Below are positions 1-5,887 of a stretch of 5,887 nucleotides of DNA, piece by piece. Source of the DNA: an uncultured Eubacteriales bacterium (lineage in GTDB: Bacteria > Bacillota > Clostridia > Lachnospirales > Lachnospiraceae); contig OMSZ01000021.1 of the NCBI GenBank assembly GCA_900313855.1, forward strand, positions 1 to 5,887, read 5' to 3'. The translations under genes and the position numbers were made by a program. Position 1 is the first letter of the stretch. Each line of letters starts with the position of its first letter. The notes under the pieces are model-generated. The model made no database searches. It was not told where the DNA came from and saw only the letters and a list, made by a program, of their open reading frames with translations.

Positions 1-1033
1 AGGTCAGATAATATTTTAGATAATCCATTCCATAATCCTTAATAAAATCCTCTGCCGAATCATATTCATAGTCCTCATATACACCTTCGACAAACTCATT
101 CACATCATCATCAGAGACAGAGATATTCTCGGCTTTTGCGATAGCCTCTACCACCTGATGCTCATGCACCATAGCAAGAATATCCTCCTTCTTTGACGCA
201 TCATCGATTCCAATAAGCTCCTCATAAGCGGAAAGCTCCATGCCATACATGGCAGCCATCTGTTCATTACCGCTGTTATATTCTTCCTCACAATCAGAAT
301 ACATTTTCTTGTCATATCCCGAAAATGTTGAATTATCAATAATCTTCTGCATTATCTGCGAAACGCTTTCTGACTTATATTCGTCTTCCTTTTCCTGTAA
401 AAGCTGTTCCTTCAAAGCAGTCTCATACTCTGCAACACTATTATATTCAAGCTTTTCCTTGACAAATTCATCATTATATTCAGGTGTATTCTCAACCGAA
501 ATACTGTTAAGCGTTACTTCGAATTCTCCGGTTTTTCCTACCGCATCCTCATCAGCGTAATCGTCAGTAAATGTGACAGAAACCGTTTTCTTCTCTCCCT
601 TTTTCATTCCCACAAGGGCTTTCTCTATTTCAGGATAGATATATTCTTCACCTAAAACAACATCCTCCTCATATCCCGAATACGGATCATCACTTTCAAC
701 CTCTTCCTCATCATCAGAGGCCTCAGACTCATCACTATCCTCATCATCGGAGGTATCTGACTCATAAGGCTTACCATCAAACTTGGTTATAACATAGTCA
801 ACATTAACCATGTCACCATCTACTGCCGCACGATCCGTCACCTCATCATAAGTAACATAATCATACATCATTTCCTCAACGGCATCTTTGACCTCCTGGT
901 CACTTATTTCGCAGATAACCTTTTCTGCCTCAATTCCTTTATACTCCCCAAGCTTAACATAGTTGCCGCCGCAACCGGTAAGCATTGCTAAAACGCATAT
1001 TCCGGCAAGTCCTTTTACGATATTTTTCTTCAT
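1..1033 (-). CDS. Lipoprotein with FKBP/trigger-factor-like domain (C-terminal end beyond the window)
   Basis: The reading frame is open for 344 codons from ATG at 1033 and has no stop before the left edge, so the C-terminus is missing. AAGGAG lies 6 nt before the start. Residues 1-21 form a lipoprotein signal: basic MKKN, a hydrophobic stretch, then the lipobox L-T-G-C with Cys21 as the lipidation site. Residues about 68-180 resemble the FKBP domain of trigger factor: R-A-A-V-D-G-D-M-V-N-V-D-Y, then G-M-K-K-G-E, V-T-F-T-D-D-Y and G-K-T-G-E-F-E-V. From about 184 the protein is charged and helical, like the trigger-factor C-terminal domain. The ribosome-binding domain is absent. The predicted role is a surface-anchored peptidyl-prolyl isomerase or chaperone, comparable to PrsA. 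The usual P-G-F-E of the active-site region reads P-E-I-E, and an acidic insertion (residues 91-124) interrupts the domain, so isomerase activity is uncertain. It is probably the last gene seen of the minus-strand operon, 24 nt after the glycosyltransferase. Confidence 0.85.
   Translation of the reverse strand, partial: MKKNIVKGLAGICVLAMLTGCGGNYVKLGEYKGIEAEKVICEISDQEVKDAVEEMMYDYVTYDEVTDRAAVDGDMVNVDYVITKFDGKPYESDTSDDEDSDESEASDDEEEVESDDPYSGYEEDVVLGEEYIYPEIEKALVGMKKGEKKTVSVTFTDDYADEDAVGKTGEFEVTLNSISVENTPEYNDEFVKEKLEYNSVAEYETALKEQLLQEKEDEYKSESVSQIMQKIIDNSTFSGYDKKMYSDCEEEYNSGNEQMAAMYGMELSAYEELIGIDDASKKEDILAMVHEHQVVEAIAKAENISVSDDDVNEFVEGVYEDYEYDSAEDFIKDYGMDYLKYYLT
705..770 (-). repeat. 33-bp imperfect tandem duplication coding an acidic stretch
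   Basis: Two adjacent 33-bp units (705-737 and 738-770) share a 16-bp block, TCCTCATCATCRGAGG on the plus strand, with one mismatch, and later GACTCAT. They encode two 11-residue units in the lipoprotein, ESDTSDDEDSD and ESEASDDEEEV, with six identical positions. The length is a multiple of three and keeps the frame. It looks like an in-frame duplication that lengthened an acidic loop in the FKBP-like domain. Confidence 0.6.
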
Positions 1034-1057
1034 ATTATTCTCCTTTTTAATACCATG

Positions 1058-3154
1058 CTAGTTAAGAACTCTATCATGTTTCCCCGTAATTGTAAAGTAA
1101 ATTTCATACCACTCTTTTCTCGTCAGATTGACTCCTGACGCCTCACAAATACTCTTAATATCTTCGATATCAGTAACATCTACAGCAACCTGAAGCTTAG
1201 CCGGATGCCGCATAGTCCATGCGATCGCTATCGCTTTATCGGACACCTTATACTCATCCGAAAGTGACGCCAAAACCTTCTTAGTATCCTCTGATAGAAA
1301 ATCCCCCGGAAGCGCATCCGTTGCCTGAACAGTAACTTCGAACAGACCACATCTGTCAACAAGCTTAAGTGATTCATCAATCACCTCACCCGATGCTACC
1401 CCGCACGAGAATCTGTTGATAAGAAATGTTTCCTTACACGCCGACTGCAAAAGCGCCATCTGCTCCGCATCAAAATGACTCAGCCCGAACTGTCTCACCT
1501 TACCGCTTTTCTGCAATTGGTTAATAGTATCAGCCACCTCATTGACATCCATAAGGTAATCAGGTTTCCCGAGCAATAATATATCAATACAGTCAACCTG
1601 CAATCTTCTCAAGCTGTCTTCGACAGAAGATAAAATGTGCGCGCCCGACAGATCATAATATCCGTTGTAGCTGCCGCATTTTGTCTGTATTCTCATACGC
1701 TGCCGCATGCCCTTGTTCTCGGTTATAACCCTGCCAAACATCTCCTCACAGCGTCCATTGCCGTAATTCGGAGCAAGATCATACATTGTTATTCCCTGCT
1801 CTAAGGAGGTATCCACTAATTTGACGGCATCACTGTATGAAAGCTTATCAAGGTTCTTAAGGCAGAGAGCAAGCCTGCTCGCATCCATATCGGAATTACC
1901 GAGGATCATTGCCATATCTCCGCCAAGCGGTTTAACGCCCGTTCTCTCATACCCTATCTTACCGGCAACCTTATTAGCCATCCTGATAAGCATATTTCTA
2001 TGGTTCTTCGTTACGTGATAGTAAATGTTCTCAACCTTTGCTGCAAACTGTTCGGTAGAAAACTTTTCCACGCTCTGTAACGCCTTACTTCTATAATCTA
2101 TATGCTCGCCATTCCAAAGAACCGCATTAATCCCCGATACAAATGACTGCTCGTCTTCAAACTCATAACCGTTTTCCCCGTTAAACAAAACTCCGTCAAG
2201 ACAGGGATCCTTTCTCGCAACCACAGGCACTCCGGAAGCCAGCGCTTCAATGTAAGTCAGCCCCTGCGTCTCGCTCGTTGATGAAGACACAAACACGTCA
2301 CCTAACTGATAGTAATGATTGATCTCATCCCATGGCTTTGCTCCGGCAAATATCATCTGCTTCCTGTTCTTCAAGCCTTTGGCTTTCTTTTCCAAAGCAC
2401 TCTTATGCGGACCGTCACCAACCACAAGAAATGTTACTTTATCCTGCTCCTCCATATAATCATCGAGATAATCCATCAGTTCATCAATGTTTTTCTCCTC
2501 GGATACTCTGCCAAGATATAATACGACTTTATTACCCTTTGGAATCCCCAGGGATGCCTTGAGCTTTTCCTTGTCATAGCTGCTATCCCACTTCTGGAAT
2601 TTTGAAAGATCGATTCCTGTAGGGATAACATTTATCTCAGGCTTAACCTTATATCTTTTCATCAGCTCCGCAACCTTCTCTGTAGGAACTATAAGTTCCT
2701 CTGCGCCGCGTACGCTGAACTTGCTGTACATTTTGGCAAACTGCTTTGCTCTCTTATCACTTGAGATATACTTCTTAAGATAATGAGCATAGTCCTCATA
2801 TATAGTATGATAAGTATGCACTACCGGGACAAAAAGCTCATGTGCCATGATCCTTCCGAACATTCCTATCGCAAACTCGGTATTAGTATGAATGATATCA
2901 AGCTTCATTTTATGAATCTGTAATGCGATCTTAGGATGATATAACAGTCCTAATCTTCTTTCGGGAACAAATGAAACCGCCTTTGAAGGAACCCTGAAAA
3001 CCCCCTTTTCGTTAGCAGGCGCTCCCGGCGTCTTGGTAGTTATCACATATACATTATGGCCTCTCTTTTCCAGCTCCTTTTTCAAAAGGAATACTGAATT
3101 GGCCACCCCATTTAATTCCGGATAATAAGTATCCGTAAACAACCCGATATTCAT
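1058..3154 (-). CDS. Fusion protein: GT4 lipid glucosyltransferase + degenerate YdhF-type aldo/keto reductase domain
   Basis: The protein has 698 residues. It starts at ATG 3154 with AAGGAG 9 nt upstream and ends at TAG. Residues 1-385 are a complete GT-B glycosyltransferase of family 4: N-terminal FTDTYYPELNGV, a V-V-H-T-Y-H-T-I-Y-E-D-Y segment (111-122) typical of diacylglycerol glucosyltransferases, L-G-R-V-S-E-E-K-N (214-222) with the Arg/Lys pair that contacts the nucleotide diphosphate, V-G-D-G-P (245-249), and an E-x7-E motif at Glu295 and Glu303. Such enzymes are usually about 400 residues long and move glucose from UDP-glucose to diacylglycerol at the inner membrane face; the exact acceptor here is inferred. 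A basic linker (about 385-410) leads to residues 412-698, which resemble YdhF-type aldo/keto reductases: Y-D-L-A-P-N-Y-G (458-465), T-K-C-G (491-494), K-P-D-Y-L-M-D, S-G-K-V-R-Q-F-G-L-S and the ending L-T-R-K-E-W-Y-E-I-Y. Asp459, Tyr464 and Lys492 of the tetrad are present, but the histidine position is Gly529. The reductase half is therefore probably not catalytic. It sits 45 nt after the HD-GYP gene, in an operon. Confidence 0.9.
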   Translation of the reverse strand: MNIGLFTDTYYPELNGVANSVFLLKKELEKRGHNVYVITTKTPGAPANEKGVFRVPSKAVSFVPERRLGLLYHPKIALQIHKMKLDIIHTNTEFAIGMFGRIMAHELFVPVVHTYHTIYEDYAHYLKKYISSDKRAKQFAKMYSKFSVRGAEELIVPTEKVAELMKRYKVKPEINVIPTGIDLSKFQKWDSSYDKEKLKASLGIPKGNKVVLYLGRVSEEKNIDELMDYLDDYMEEQDKVTFLVVGDGPHKSALEKKAKGLKNRKQMIFAGAKPWDEINHYYQLGDVFVSSSTSETQGLTYIEALASGVPVVARKDPCLDGVLFNGENGYEFEDEQSFVSGINAVLWNGEHIDYRSKALQSVEKFSTEQFAAKVENIYYHVTKNHRNMLIRMANKVAGKIGYERTGVKPLGGDMAMILGNSDMDASRLALCLKNLDKLSYSDAVKLVDTSLEQGITMYDLAPNYGNGRCEEMFGRVITENKGMRQRMRIQTKCGSYNGYYDLSGAHILSSVEDSLRRLQVDCIDILLLGKPDYLMDVNEVADTINQLQKSGKVRQFGLSHFDAEQMALLQSACKETFLINRFSCGVASGEVIDESLKLVDRCGLFEVTVQATDALPGDFLSEDTKKVLASLSDEYKVSDKAIAIAWTMRHPAKLQVAVDVTDIEDIKSICEASGVNLTRKEWYEIYFTITGKHDRVLN
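1907..1921 (-). promoter_or_regulatory. Internal Shine-Dalgarno-like site and ATG at the reductase domain boundary
   Basis: Inside the fusion gene, GGAG (1921-1918) lies 8 nt before the in-frame ATG of Met416 (1909-1907). Another ATG, Met414, lies at 1915-1913. Ordinary YdhF proteins start at about this point of the alignment. The site could make a separate 283-residue reductase-like protein, or be a trace of a once-separate gene. GGAG can also arise by chance from the Gly-Gly-Asp codons here, so the evidence is weak. Confidence 0.25.
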
Positions 3155-3199
3155 ATACCCATTCTCCTTTTTATAACATTCTGATCTTTTAACATCATA

Positions 3200-3814
3200 T
3201 TATGCAGACTTATACAAAACCCCTTCCAATTCCCATCTGCATTCCTCAAGGCACCGCACCATTTTGGGAGATATGCCTCCGCATTCCCCATTGACGATCA
3301 TATAAAACGCTCTGCCCGGATCTATCTTTTCCTTAAAATTATGATGCACCAACGTGTCATAAATATCCGCAATCCCAACAATCTGTGCCTCAACCGGGAT
3401 CTTATCCGCTTTTATTCCATAAGGATATCCGCTCCCGTCATATTTCTCATGATGATACACGCATACGTTATAGCATATACGTTCAAAGTCCTTGTCCCTT
3501 CCGTTTGATAAAGACTTGATAACCTGTCCCCCTTTGATCGTATGCTTCTTATATAGTGAGAACTCATACATAGACATTATCCCTGCTTTATCCAAAAGAC
3601 CGTCCGGCATCGAAAGCTTGCCAATATCATGAATTGATGCCGCTAATGCTATCAGCTTCTGTTTTTCCGTTGTCATCCTTGAATTACGAAAGAGCTTTGA
3701 ATAGCTTTCTGCAAGTATTGCCGAATACTGCTGAACATACCACATATGTTCCCTGCTCTCCACACTGCCCTGAACTATCATATCATTTAATAGATTAATG
3801 TAACTGTTATTCAT
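3200..3814 (-). CDS. Stand-alone HD-GYP domain phosphohydrolase (predicted cyclic-dinucleotide phosphodiesterase)
   Basis: The protein has 204 residues and consists almost entirely of one HD-GYP domain, with no receiver, PAS or membrane segment. Visible metal and catalytic residues in order are His23, the H-D-I-G-K motif (His62, Asp63, Lys66), His91, His121-His122 in H-H-E-K-Y-D-G-S-G-Y-P (121-131), and Asp150 and Asp153 in A-D-I-Y-D-T-L. HD-GYP proteins with this set typically cleave c-di-GMP or related cyclic dinucleotides; the substrate cannot be read from the sequence. The segment after A-D-I-Y-D reads T-L-V-H-H-N-F instead of the usual A-L-T-S-x-R-P-Y, so the C-terminal part is divergent. 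The start at ATG 3814 lies 10 nt after the EcsC stop. Its only Shine-Dalgarno candidate, a weak AGG, overlaps that stop codon, suggesting translational coupling. It is a cytoplasmic protein of the minus-strand operon. Confidence 0.88.
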   Translation of the reverse strand: MNNSYINLLNDMIVQGSVESREHMWYVQQYSAILAESYSKLFRNSRMTTEKQKLIALAASIHDIGKLSMPDGLLDKAGIMSMYEFSLYKKHTIKGGQVIKSLSNGRDKDFERICYNVCVYHHEKYDGSGYPYGIKADKIPVEAQIVGIADIYDTLVHHNFKEKIDPGRAFYMIVNGECGGISPKMVRCLEECRWELEGVLYKSA

Positions 3815-3824
3815 CTGCCAAAAC

Positions 3825-4628
3825 CTATTCCATATATTTAAGCAAAAATCTTCTCTTATATTTCAACACCGCGTAATCTGTTATCTTCTTAAGACATGTG
3901 ACATCATTCATTCCACCGACAATACCTATTATTGCTTTTCCCTGAACAAACTTGCCGTATAACAGCTCTCTTGAAAGCGCTTCTGCGGAGGTGTCGATCT
4001 GCCTTGTTATCATAAGTCTGACAACATACTCGTCATCCCCACTTTCCTCCTCCGAATCCATAATCTCTATAAGCTTATTAATCTCTTTGTTCTTCTTGCG
4101 AAGCTCGTCTCCACTCTTCAACGCCCCATCAATTATATTAAGAATAAAGAGCTTCTCCTGAGGAGAGGTATAACCAAAACCAAAGCTTATCGCAATCTCA
4201 TATATGCTCTTTAACATAACGGAAACAAATATCGGAATATCAGGAATACCCATTCCCGCAAGTCCCAGAGCAAGTCCCTCAACACCGGAGATGGCAAGAT
4301 TCTTCCCCATCGTGTATTTTGCCTGCCTGTCAAAACGTCTAACACCTGCAGCTGTAAAGCCTTCGCGCCTCATCTTTTTTGATGAATGCTTAAATGTGCT
4401 TTTCTGCGCATCCTTTTTGTATGTCTTTTCTATTATTCCTGTTCCCTTTTGAAACACCATAAAAAACGCTTTGCAAAAAGCCGATTCCAACGTCCTCTGC
4501 AAAGACACAGGAACCTTACGCCGCACAAAGCGTACCCATCCGGGGGTTTTATCCATTATATGTCTGGTAAGATATGATTCCTCTTTTAAATTCTGTAATC
4601 TCCATTCATTTTCCCAGGAAAAACTCAT
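3825..4628 (-). CDS. EcsC-family protein
   Basis: With the start at ATG 4628 the protein has 267 residues (MSFSWENEW...). The EcsC family is recognised from a glycine-rich hydrophobic segment G-L-A-L-G-L-A-G-M-G-I-P-D-I-P-I-F (118-134), followed by F-G-F-G-Y-T-S-P-Q-E-K, and a C-terminal K-A-I-I-G-I-V-G-G-M-N-D (231-242) with Y-K-R-R-F-L (257-262). The family is named after EcsC of the Bacillus ecs cluster; its biochemical function is not established. Residues about 30-105 are very basic and the glycine-rich segment could associate with the membrane. The start was chosen because AAAAGGA (4643-4637) lies 9 nt upstream. The frame stays open to a TTG at 4667, but that codon overlaps the predicted -10 box. 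ATG 4649 is possible but has no clear Shine-Dalgarno. It is the first gene of the minus-strand operon. Confidence 0.82.
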   Translation of the reverse strand: MSFSWENEWRLQNLKEESYLTRHIMDKTPGWVRFVRRKVPVSLQRTLESAFCKAFFMVFQKGTGIIEKTYKKDAQKSTFKHSSKKMRREGFTAAGVRRFDRQAKYTMGKNLAISGVEGLALGLAGMGIPDIPIFVSVMLKSIYEIAISFGFGYTSPQEKLFILNIIDGALKSGDELRKKNKEINKLIEIMDSEEESGDDEYVVRLMITRQIDTSAEALSRELLYGKFVQGKAIIGIVGGMNDVTCLKKITDYAVLKYKRRFLLKYME

Positions 4629-4663
4629 GCAAATCATCCTTTTATCCATTGATAATAACAAAA

Positions 4664-4708
4664 ACAAGTATAACTGTTTATGGTATATTTTACAAGTATA
4701 AATGTTTA
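4664..4708. repeat. Two copies of a 17-bp direct repeat, operator-like
   Basis: ACAAGTATAACTGTTTA (4664-4680) and ACAAGTATAAATGTTTA (4692-4708) differ at one base and are 28 bp apart. Each has partial dyad symmetry (ACA...TGT; the first copy extends to AAACA...TGTTT). The first copy covers the -10 box of the minus-strand promoter and the second overlaps its -35 box. This is what paired binding sites of a repressor would look like; no regulator gene is visible in the window. Confidence 0.5.
4667..4695 (-). promoter_or_regulatory. Predicted sigma-A promoter of the ecsC-family operon
   Basis: On the minus strand TTGTAA (4695-4690) is followed after 17 nt by TATACT (4672-4667). Transcription would start near 4660 and give a leader of about 30 nt before ATG 4628. 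The -10 matches the consensus at five of six bases and the -35 at four. Confidence 0.6.
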
Positions 4709-4722
4709 TCCGAATTCCCGTC

Positions 4723-4751
4723 TTGACACAGAGATAAACTATCTATACAAT
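4723..4751 (+). promoter_or_regulatory. Predicted sigma-A promoter of the EamA transporter gene
   Basis: A perfect -35 TTGACA (4723-4728) is followed after 17 nt by TACAAT (4746-4751), five of six consensus bases. Transcription would start near 4758, leaving a leader of about 80 nt. The spacer contains the inverted repeat AGATA-AAC-TATCT (4732-4744), a possible operator. The -35 boxes of the two divergent promoters are 27 bp apart. Confidence 0.75.
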
Positions 4752-4762
4752 GTCAATATTGC

Positions 4763-4801
4763 TGTCGGAAAGCCGAACTTTTTATCGTTAAGTTTCCGAC
4801 A
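4763..4801 (+). promoter_or_regulatory. Structured 5' leader hairpin of the transporter mRNA
   Basis: TGTCGGAAA (4763-4771) pairs perfectly with TTTCCGACA (4793-4801) around a 21-nt loop. Two other pairings compete or nest: TCGG-AAAG-CCGA (4765-4776), and AACTT (4776-4780) with AAGTT (4790-4794). No U-tract follows, so it is not a simple terminator. The ribosome site (AAAGGT, 4826-4831) lies outside the stem. It matches no riboswitch class I recognise; it could be a regulatory leader, an mRNA-stabilising hairpin, or a protein-binding dyad. Confidence 0.45.
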
Positions 4802-4837
4802 TTTATCAATACTTAATTACAATCGAAAGGTCAAATA

Positions 4838-5881
4838 ATGGGAAATACCGATCATAAAACCACAAGTTTAAAAGGTGTATTCATTCTTCTCTTAACTGCA
4901 TTTATATGGGGAACCTCCTTTGTTGCCCAGAGCTTAGGCATGGAGAAAATAGAAGCATTTACATTCAACGGAATAAGAACTGTCATGGGAGGCTTGTTTC
5001 TTCTTCCGATAATTATTATAAGGGAAATGTATTATCGTAGAAAAACCGGAATGAGCAACGACGCTATTCCAGGCAAAGCTTCAGGTACAGACATTGATCA
5101 AAGCAAAAACAAAAATGCAGGTACAAGCAATAACAACAAGGTTACAACCGGCAATACGAAAGGTACCGACAATCCGGCAAAGCGTCAGAACATTTTTACG
5201 AAAAAGGCTTTGCGTTATGGAATAGTCTTAGGACTTGTATTTTTCGTTGCCAGTAATTTTCAGCAGTTTGCCTTCTACTATTCAACTGCGGGAAAGATTG
5301 CATTTATAACATCACTATATATGTTCTTCGTACCGATAATAGGATTGTTTATTAGAAAAAGGGTTCCGTTGATTACCTGGATATGCGTGGTTTGCGGATT
5401 TATCGGAACGTATTTTCTATGTATAAAGCCGGGACAGACATTCGAGATCAACAGAGGTGATTTCTTAGCGCTTTTGTGTGCATTTTTCTACGCAATTCAT
5501 ATTCTTTGTGTTGAGAAATTCTCCAGGGAGGTGGACGGCACTCTGCTTTCCTGCCTGCAGTTCTTTGTCGGCGGAGGTATTTCGATCATAATGATGTTCA
5601 TTTTTGAAACTCCGGTGATAACTGACATACTTGCAGCAGGAAAACCACTTCTTTATTCAGGAATAATGAGCTGCGGCATCGCCTATACCTTTCAGATAAT
5701 CGGACAGCAATATACGGAAGCTACCATAGCATCACTTCTTATGTGCATGGAATCGGTATTCGCGGTATTATCCTCTGCCATCATCCTTAATGAATTCTTA
5801 ACCGGACGTGAAATTATCGGTTGTGTGATAATGTTTATTGCTATCATCATTTCCCAGATTTCTACTGCTAAAAACAAATAG
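4838..5881 (+). CDS. EamA-family (DMT superfamily) transporter with hydrophilic insertion
   Basis: The protein has 347 residues, starting at ATG 4838 with AAAGG 8 nt upstream and ending at TAG 5881. It has two EamA repeats and about ten membrane helices, near residues 12-31, 40-61, 126-142, 150-171, 178-196, 208-226, 235-255, 268-288, 297-317 and 325-343. Family signatures include A-F-I-W-G-T-S-F-V-A (21-30) early in repeat one and a short polar loop before L-A-L-L-C-A-F-F-Y-A-I-H (210-221) opening repeat two. EamA proteins export or import metabolites such as amino acids or other small molecules; the substrate cannot be told. Usual length is about 290-300 residues. The excess comes from a low-complexity stretch at about 67-119, rich in Lys, Asn, Thr and Gly, between helices 2 and 3. 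The gene is divergent from the operon and has its own strong promoter. Confidence 0.9.
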   Translation: MGNTDHKTTSLKGVFILLLTAFIWGTSFVAQSLGMEKIEAFTFNGIRTVMGGLFLLPIIIIREMYYRRKTGMSNDAIPGKASGTDIDQSKNKNAGTSNNNKVTTGNTKGTDNPAKRQNIFTKKALRYGIVLGLVFFVASNFQQFAFYYSTAGKIAFITSLYMFFVPIIGLFIRKRVPLITWICVVCGFIGTYFLCIKPGQTFEINRGDFLALLCAFFYAIHILCVEKFSREVDGTLLSCLQFFVGGGISIIMMFIFETPVITDILAAGKPLLYSGIMSCGIAYTFQIIGQQYTEATIASLLMCMESVFAVLSSAIILNEFLTGREIIGCVIMFIAIIISQISTAKNK

Positions 5882-5887
5882 TAAAAA

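Follow-up and report, generated by a model that had tools for sequence, protein, structure and literature searches.

The window analyzed here is a 5,887-nucleotide stretch of DNA from an uncultured Lachnospiraceae bacterium (contig OMSZ01000021.1, positions 1 to 5,887). A single open frame on its minus strand, running from an ATG start to a stop (698 codons plus stop; 1058..3154), encodes a glycosyltransferase family 4 (GT4) enzyme fused to an aldo/keto reductase (AKR) domain; all positions given for this gene are on the minus strand. The GT4 half (residues 1–384; 2003..3154) matched PF13439 at residues 15–184 (120.4 bits against a cut-off of 28.5, E 1.1e-34) and PF00534 at residues 194–351 (108.4 bits against a cut-off of 26.4, E 3.6e-31), and the AKR half (residues 414–690; 1085..1915) matched PF00248 at residues 436–685 (E 9.7e-39, above the cut-off). 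These Pfam matches and the 698-codon frame bear out the preliminary description of this DNA, in which one uninterrupted frame joined a GT4 enzyme to an AKR domain.

Structure prediction modeled the AKR fold with a predicted local distance difference test score (pLDDT) of 86–96. Together, the above-threshold PF00248 match and the TIM-barrel AKR fold place this half in the AKR superfamily by descent. Its best solved sequence relatives are a putative Salmonella AKR (4r9o, 110.6 bits) and Escherichia coli YdhF (1og6, 109.9 bits). In the linker (residues 385–413; 1916..2002), a long helix ends at residue 396 and is followed by a low-confidence stretch, with residues 396–405 below pLDDT 50; the two structure models, both weak at the linker, had predicted template modeling scores of 0.53 and 0.71. 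The linker helix was considered as a membrane-binding element and rejected, as hydrophobic-moment windows starting at residues 366–390 ranked only 37th to 179th of 681 and were thus not unusually amphipathic. M414 occupies the position where standalone AKRs begin. Some public records begin there; an internal start at M414 appears unlikely, as inspection by eye of the codons upstream of it in 22 loci revealed no common Shine-Dalgarno-like stretch that would mark a second ribosome site.

A protein search returned 5815 matches, and among the best 120 of these, 114 were full-length fusions of at least 690 residues, all with both Pfam halves. The fusion was found in 22 of the 26 genomes of the window's genus. 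The four genomes without it are 70, 82, 95, and 76% complete; since one of them is 95% complete, at least one near-complete member of the genus seems to lack the gene. Outside the genus, none was found in three wider samples: the fusion occurred in 2 of 299 genomes of the family and 2 of 392 of the order, all from the window's genus, and in 22 of 294 genomes of relatives, again all from this genus. The search across Lachnospiraceae suggested in the preliminary description thus located the architecture, in these samples, within this genus only. The GT half alone was matched at 1e-100 or better in 10 other genomes of the family sample.

Among the named loci, of which 80 were kept from 316, 20 matched across both halves, with titles naming Lachnospiraceae, Clostridium, Clostridia, Clostridiales, Clostridiaceae, and, once, Bacteroidales. 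The last is locus L049, where a contig in a Bacteroidales bin carries a Lachnospiraceae-type fusion and neighbors; this bin is probably mislabeled. Ten further full-length fusions (P0107–P0116) showed 49–52% identity, and their host was not found among the 392 order genomes, the 294 relatives, or the 80 of 316 named loci. A search of open-licence papers returned no description of a GT4-AKR pairing, in line with the earlier remark that no standard pairing of the two enzymes is known.

All 22 genus loci contain open frames of 696–721 codons without an internal stop, open across the joint. The frameshift or missed stop that had been named as a danger is thus absent, and the architecture is not restricted to one strain. 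An assembly or gene-calling artefact joining two genes would account for the public records P0122, P0125, and P0126 (loci L049, L051, and L052), which give the AKR half alone. However, in the DNA of these three loci the fused frame continues upstream as one frame, and, given the 22 open genus loci and the 20 named loci matching both halves, we consider the chance of such an artefact to be vanishingly small. The fusion is genuine and recurrent and is no assembly error. Separately encoded, neighboring halves, which the preliminary description had suggested looking for, were not seen: flanks of unfused GT loci contained no AKR-like match in 15 of 15 loci, several of them on short contigs. The GT half was listed alone in three relatives at 75% identity or more (P0117, P0241, and P0242). 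Loss of the AKR half, a broken frame, or the end of a contig could each explain these; the search that yielded them covered proteins of up to 707 residues and gives no measure of how rare such cases are.

To place the fusions among their relatives, quick trees were built for each half. The fused GT halves (62 rows) were separated from 50 of 100 unfused GTs by one branch, and the fused AKR halves (62 rows) from 56 of 112 standalone AKRs by one branch, each with a Shimodaira–Hasegawa-like approximate likelihood ratio test support of 100; the AKR split persisted when degenerate rows were omitted. These trees indicate that the fusions are one conserved family with a single origin. The unfused GT relatives are mostly 400–406 residues long and, because M414 coincides with the start of standalone AKRs, the fusion seems to have arisen from an end-to-end union of two complete genes. 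With P0107–P0116 as the outgroup, the 15 proteins of at least 690 residues that group with the window protein (P0001–P0015, hereafter the window clade) were monophyletic in the GT tree (0.986) and the AKR tree (1.0), and a second program also recovered a single clade with support of 99.

The active-site set of the GT half is untouched. E295, E303, R216, K221, H113, and H116 were present in 114 of 114 fusions, and we take the spacing of E295 and E303 (2246..2272) to be that of the GT4 E-x7-E motif and this set of Glu, Arg, Lys, and His residues to have an active-site role. Near-invariant sites were defined as those conserved in 95 of the 96 other fusions, and 150 of 152 such GT sites were retained in the window clade. 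The best full-length NCBIfam match of the GT half was alpha-monoglucosyldiacylglycerol synthase (NF049988), and the same genome carries a GalU gene for uridine diphosphate glucose (UDP-glucose) supply (383.2 bits, over the cut-off). The GT half is thus likely a membrane diacylglycerol glucosyltransferase that, judged by family resemblance and by the presence of GalU, would use UDP-glucose and diacylglycerol.

The AKR half showed a different pattern. Its residues were counted in an alignment with 96 intact fusions and 112 standalone AKRs. All 96 intact fusions have the tetrad D-Y-K-H, as do 109 of 112 standalone AKRs (the other three have E-Y-K-H) and 4 of the 15 window-clade proteins. The window protein has D459, Y464, K492, and G529, and therefore reads D-Y-K-G in place of the tetrad of a working AKR. 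The catalytic His that Gly529 (1568..1570) replaces was present in all 96 intact fusions, all 112 standalone AKRs, and 103 of the 114 fusions overall, and was lost in 11 of the 15 window-clade members. The two other AKRs detected in this genome served as a control, and in both the D, Y, K, and H are retained.

The cofactor site was altered more uniformly. The report on AKRtyl (PMC10923870) describes the nicotinamide as stacking on a Trp and its carboxamide as contacting Ser, Asn, and Gln, with Tyr and His in the tetrad; cofactor and catalytic positions were assigned here by motif, without alignment to AKRtyl. All 112 standalone AKRs have the set S559-N560-Q581-G659, as do 95 of the 114 fusions; none of the 15 window-clade proteins has it. 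The window protein retains S559 alone from the cofactor positions of a working AKR, with N560H, Q581R, W612T, G659D, and T660V as replacements. By sequence comparison, His560 (1475..1477) replaces the S-N Asn of the nicotinamide site, a residue found in 96/96 intact fusions, 112/112 standalone AKRs, and 0/15 window-clade proteins; Arg581 (1412..1414), present in 14 of 15 clade members, replaces the nicotinamide-site Gln of 96/96 intact fusions and 112/112 standalone AKRs. Thr612-Asp613 (1316..1321) stands in for a conserved Trp-Ser (Trp612 and Ser613 each in 94 of 96 intact fusions; Asp613 in 14 of 15 clade members), and Asp659-Val660 (1175..1180), after the last barrel strand, for a conserved Gly-Thr (Gly659 in 95/96 intact fusions, 112/112 standalone AKRs, and 0/15 clade members).

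Overall, 43 of 74 near-invariant AKR sites were kept in the window clade and 31 were lost. The losses clustered near the C-terminal ends of the eight barrel strands, on the cofactor face of the barrel, where 21 of the 31 lost sites lie but 9 of the 43 retained ones (Fisher P 9e-5, for a strand-end range picked after seeing the sites). At the DNA level, 15 of the 22 genus loci have the S-N-Q-G set; the 6 window-clade loci have lost it together with the His, and one (L019) lacks only the Gly. The GT tree required at least three changes of the cofactor set and at least two of the His, and therefore loss of the cofactor site seems to have been tolerated repeatedly. Four fusions beyond the window clade have also lost the S-N-Q-G set: in P0066, P0074, and P0091 the cofactor site is changed and the tetrad kept, and in P0070 W612 and G659 are changed and the catalytic tetrad is intact. 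These cases, and that of L019 (genome G023), whose cofactor site is changed with the tetrad intact, are apparently independent of the window clade.

The full-length YdhF-type AKR domain of the preliminary description is thus upheld as to fold and nearest solved relatives. The protein is shorter than those of the 16 genus loci outside the window clade (698 versus 715–721 residues), and conserved cofactor and catalytic residues are missing from its AKR half. Given this loss of residues that are retained in its relatives, the AKR half is predicted to be non-catalytic, and it would bind nicotinamide adenine dinucleotide phosphate (NADPH) poorly or not at all. Elsewhere in the genus, most members have a full AKR active site, and their AKR half is probably a working reductase.

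NAD(P)H sensing had been one of three roles proposed for the reductase fold, besides ligand binding and scaffolding of the transferase. A redox-sensing AKR half, with NAD(P)H binding preserved or some reduction carried out by an altered site, would be consistent with the D459, Y464, and K492 that remain in the window protein, with the whole tetrad in four clade members, and with the 95 fusions that look fully competent. However, the window protein has other residues in place of N560, Q581, W612, G659, and T660, and Gly for H529, which makes such a sensor improbable there. Sensing thus seems unlikely in the window clade and may occur in the 95 fusions with a retained site. For the window protein, scaffolding or the binding of a different ligand appears to fit better.

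Based on these results, we propose, with a probability of roughly 0.6, that the gene encodes a GT4 enzyme, likely a membrane diacylglycerol glucosyltransferase, carrying a non-catalytic AKR module that stabilizes, positions, or regulates the transferase. In this scheme, two whole genes would have fused, a period with two active enzymes on one chain would have followed, and reductase chemistry would then have been lost in the window branch with the fold retained. The GT half would synthesize glucosyl-diacylglycerol at the membrane. The AKR half would have ceased to reduce anything and would support or regulate the GT half, and its folded barrel would persist because it is required by the transferase or by a partner.

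Several observations weigh against this proposal. The NF049988 score of 267.8 lies below the curated equivalog cut-off of 400 bits; therefore, the GT half is likened to the synthase and not filed as a member, with a tentative substrate assignment. At the AKR half, the whole tetrad is retained in 4 of the 15 window-clade members. The absence of a 14-residue loop from the window protein was considered as decay and rejected, because the YdhF-type Agrobacterium structure 7bby also lacks the loop. The AKR-half dN/dS ratio (nonsynonymous to synonymous substitution rates), 0.066, supports retention of the domain but comes from the sole usable pair because synonymous sites are saturated. Finally, a domain in the process of being lost would likewise be expected to evolve rapidly and to shed conserved sites, of which 31 of 74 are lost here.

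That last point leads to the main rival, in which the AKR half is vestigial, became dispensable after fusion, and is eroding under relaxed selection, kept only because its removal would unfold the transferase. Measured from the ingroup root, this half has on average diverged about three times as far as in the other fusions (1.298 versus 0.444), compared with 1.2 times for the GT half (0.618 versus 0.518), and both the 31 vanished sites and the repeated cofactor-site changes on the GT tree are in keeping with erosion. In contrast, no stop or truncation was found in 15 of 15 clade proteins, which were selected for a length of at least 690 residues, or in 6 of 6 clade loci, whose frames span 696–699 codons; in the closest usable pair, AKR dN was 0.114 against saturated synonymous change; and 81 of 274 AKR positions are invariant within the clade, where new residues have become fixed (for example, R581 and D613 in 14 of 15). 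We regard a vestigial AKR half as unlikely, if the most serious competitor.

In another alternative, the AKR half has acquired a new ligand or chemistry: the emptied pocket would have been rebuilt by K433, Y533, R581, S583, and D613 and would bind a different metabolite, through which lipid glycosylation is controlled. No ligand is known, and S583 and Y533 may be mere space fillers; we find this version doubtful. In a broader reading, slightly less doubtful and still speculative, the reductase joined to a membrane-lipid GT has lost its cofactor and been remodeled into a pocket that regulates glycolipid synthesis, while the intact two-enzyme ancestor persists in sister species. If true, the steps by which an enzyme becomes a control domain could be traced within one genus.

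For the non-catalytic module that we favor, the family offers an unusual setting. The active relatives with which pseudoenzymes are compared are usually distant ones; in this genus, degenerate and active-looking forms of one fused domain occur within the same architecture, with the GT half as a built-in rate control. At least two intermediate states are represented, one with the cofactor site changed and the tetrad kept (P0066, P0074, and P0091) and one with W612 and G659 changed (P0070). The role of a dead enzyme domain for its partner is directly testable in this family. Because the genes are named 'aldo/keto reductase' and some records hold the AKR half only, the transferase function is hidden in public records.

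The window AKR differs from the YdhF-type AKRs (1og6; Agrobacterium 7bby and 7bc1), which are free-standing with an intact site, in being fused to a GT and lacking the catalytic His and cofactor residues. The title of 7bc1, an entry whose fold score ties with that of YdhF, names a complex with NADPH and glucose; for a sugar substrate of the intact AKR it is a lead only, and a literature search on it returned nothing. Unfused clostridial GT4 relatives, several of them named 1,2-diacylglycerol 3-(alpha-)glucosyltransferase at source, show 52–57% identity to the GT half, and those listed end at approximately 400 residues, without an AKR half. In MG517, a Mycoplasma glycolipid synthase, an extra C-terminal element is reported to matter for activity (PMC6506492); as described there, this element is a short amphipathic helix and no enzyme domain, whereas the helix and linker of the window protein are not unusually amphipathic. 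The Kv beta subunits of potassium channels have an AKR barrel that matches the window AKR by sequence and fold, more weakly than YdhF does. In Kv beta, the AKR barrel is attached to a membrane protein and has a regulatory role. Kv beta subunits bind NADPH and are separate subunits, whereas the window AKR is part of the same chain.

The surroundings of the fusion were compared across the 20 fused named loci, where an HD-domain gene was found in 17, a trigger-factor-like lipoprotein gene in 19, and an EcsC gene in 13. In the window, all three lie on the minus strand. A small HD-domain protein (3200–3814; PF13487) adjoins the fusion, as in 17 of the 20 fused loci, and its segment HHEKYDGSGYP resembles HD-GYP phosphodiesterases of cyclic diguanosine monophosphate. 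A trigger-factor-like peptidyl-prolyl isomerase (2–1033) with FKBP_C and Trigger_C domains has a lipoprotein-signal-like start. An EcsC-family gene (3825–4667) was identified by a profile match; the TTG given as its start probably lies too far upstream, as the homologue in L042 begins MSFSWENEWRL. Genes resembling those of tryptophan and thiamine pathways, named by reading the sequences, flank the group in several loci. This neighborhood is a chromosomal housekeeping setting and indicates no partner. At three loci with a more distant unfused GT4 relative (L076, L080, and L083), another GT from that broad family lies two genes off, with a gene of approximately 200 codons between them.
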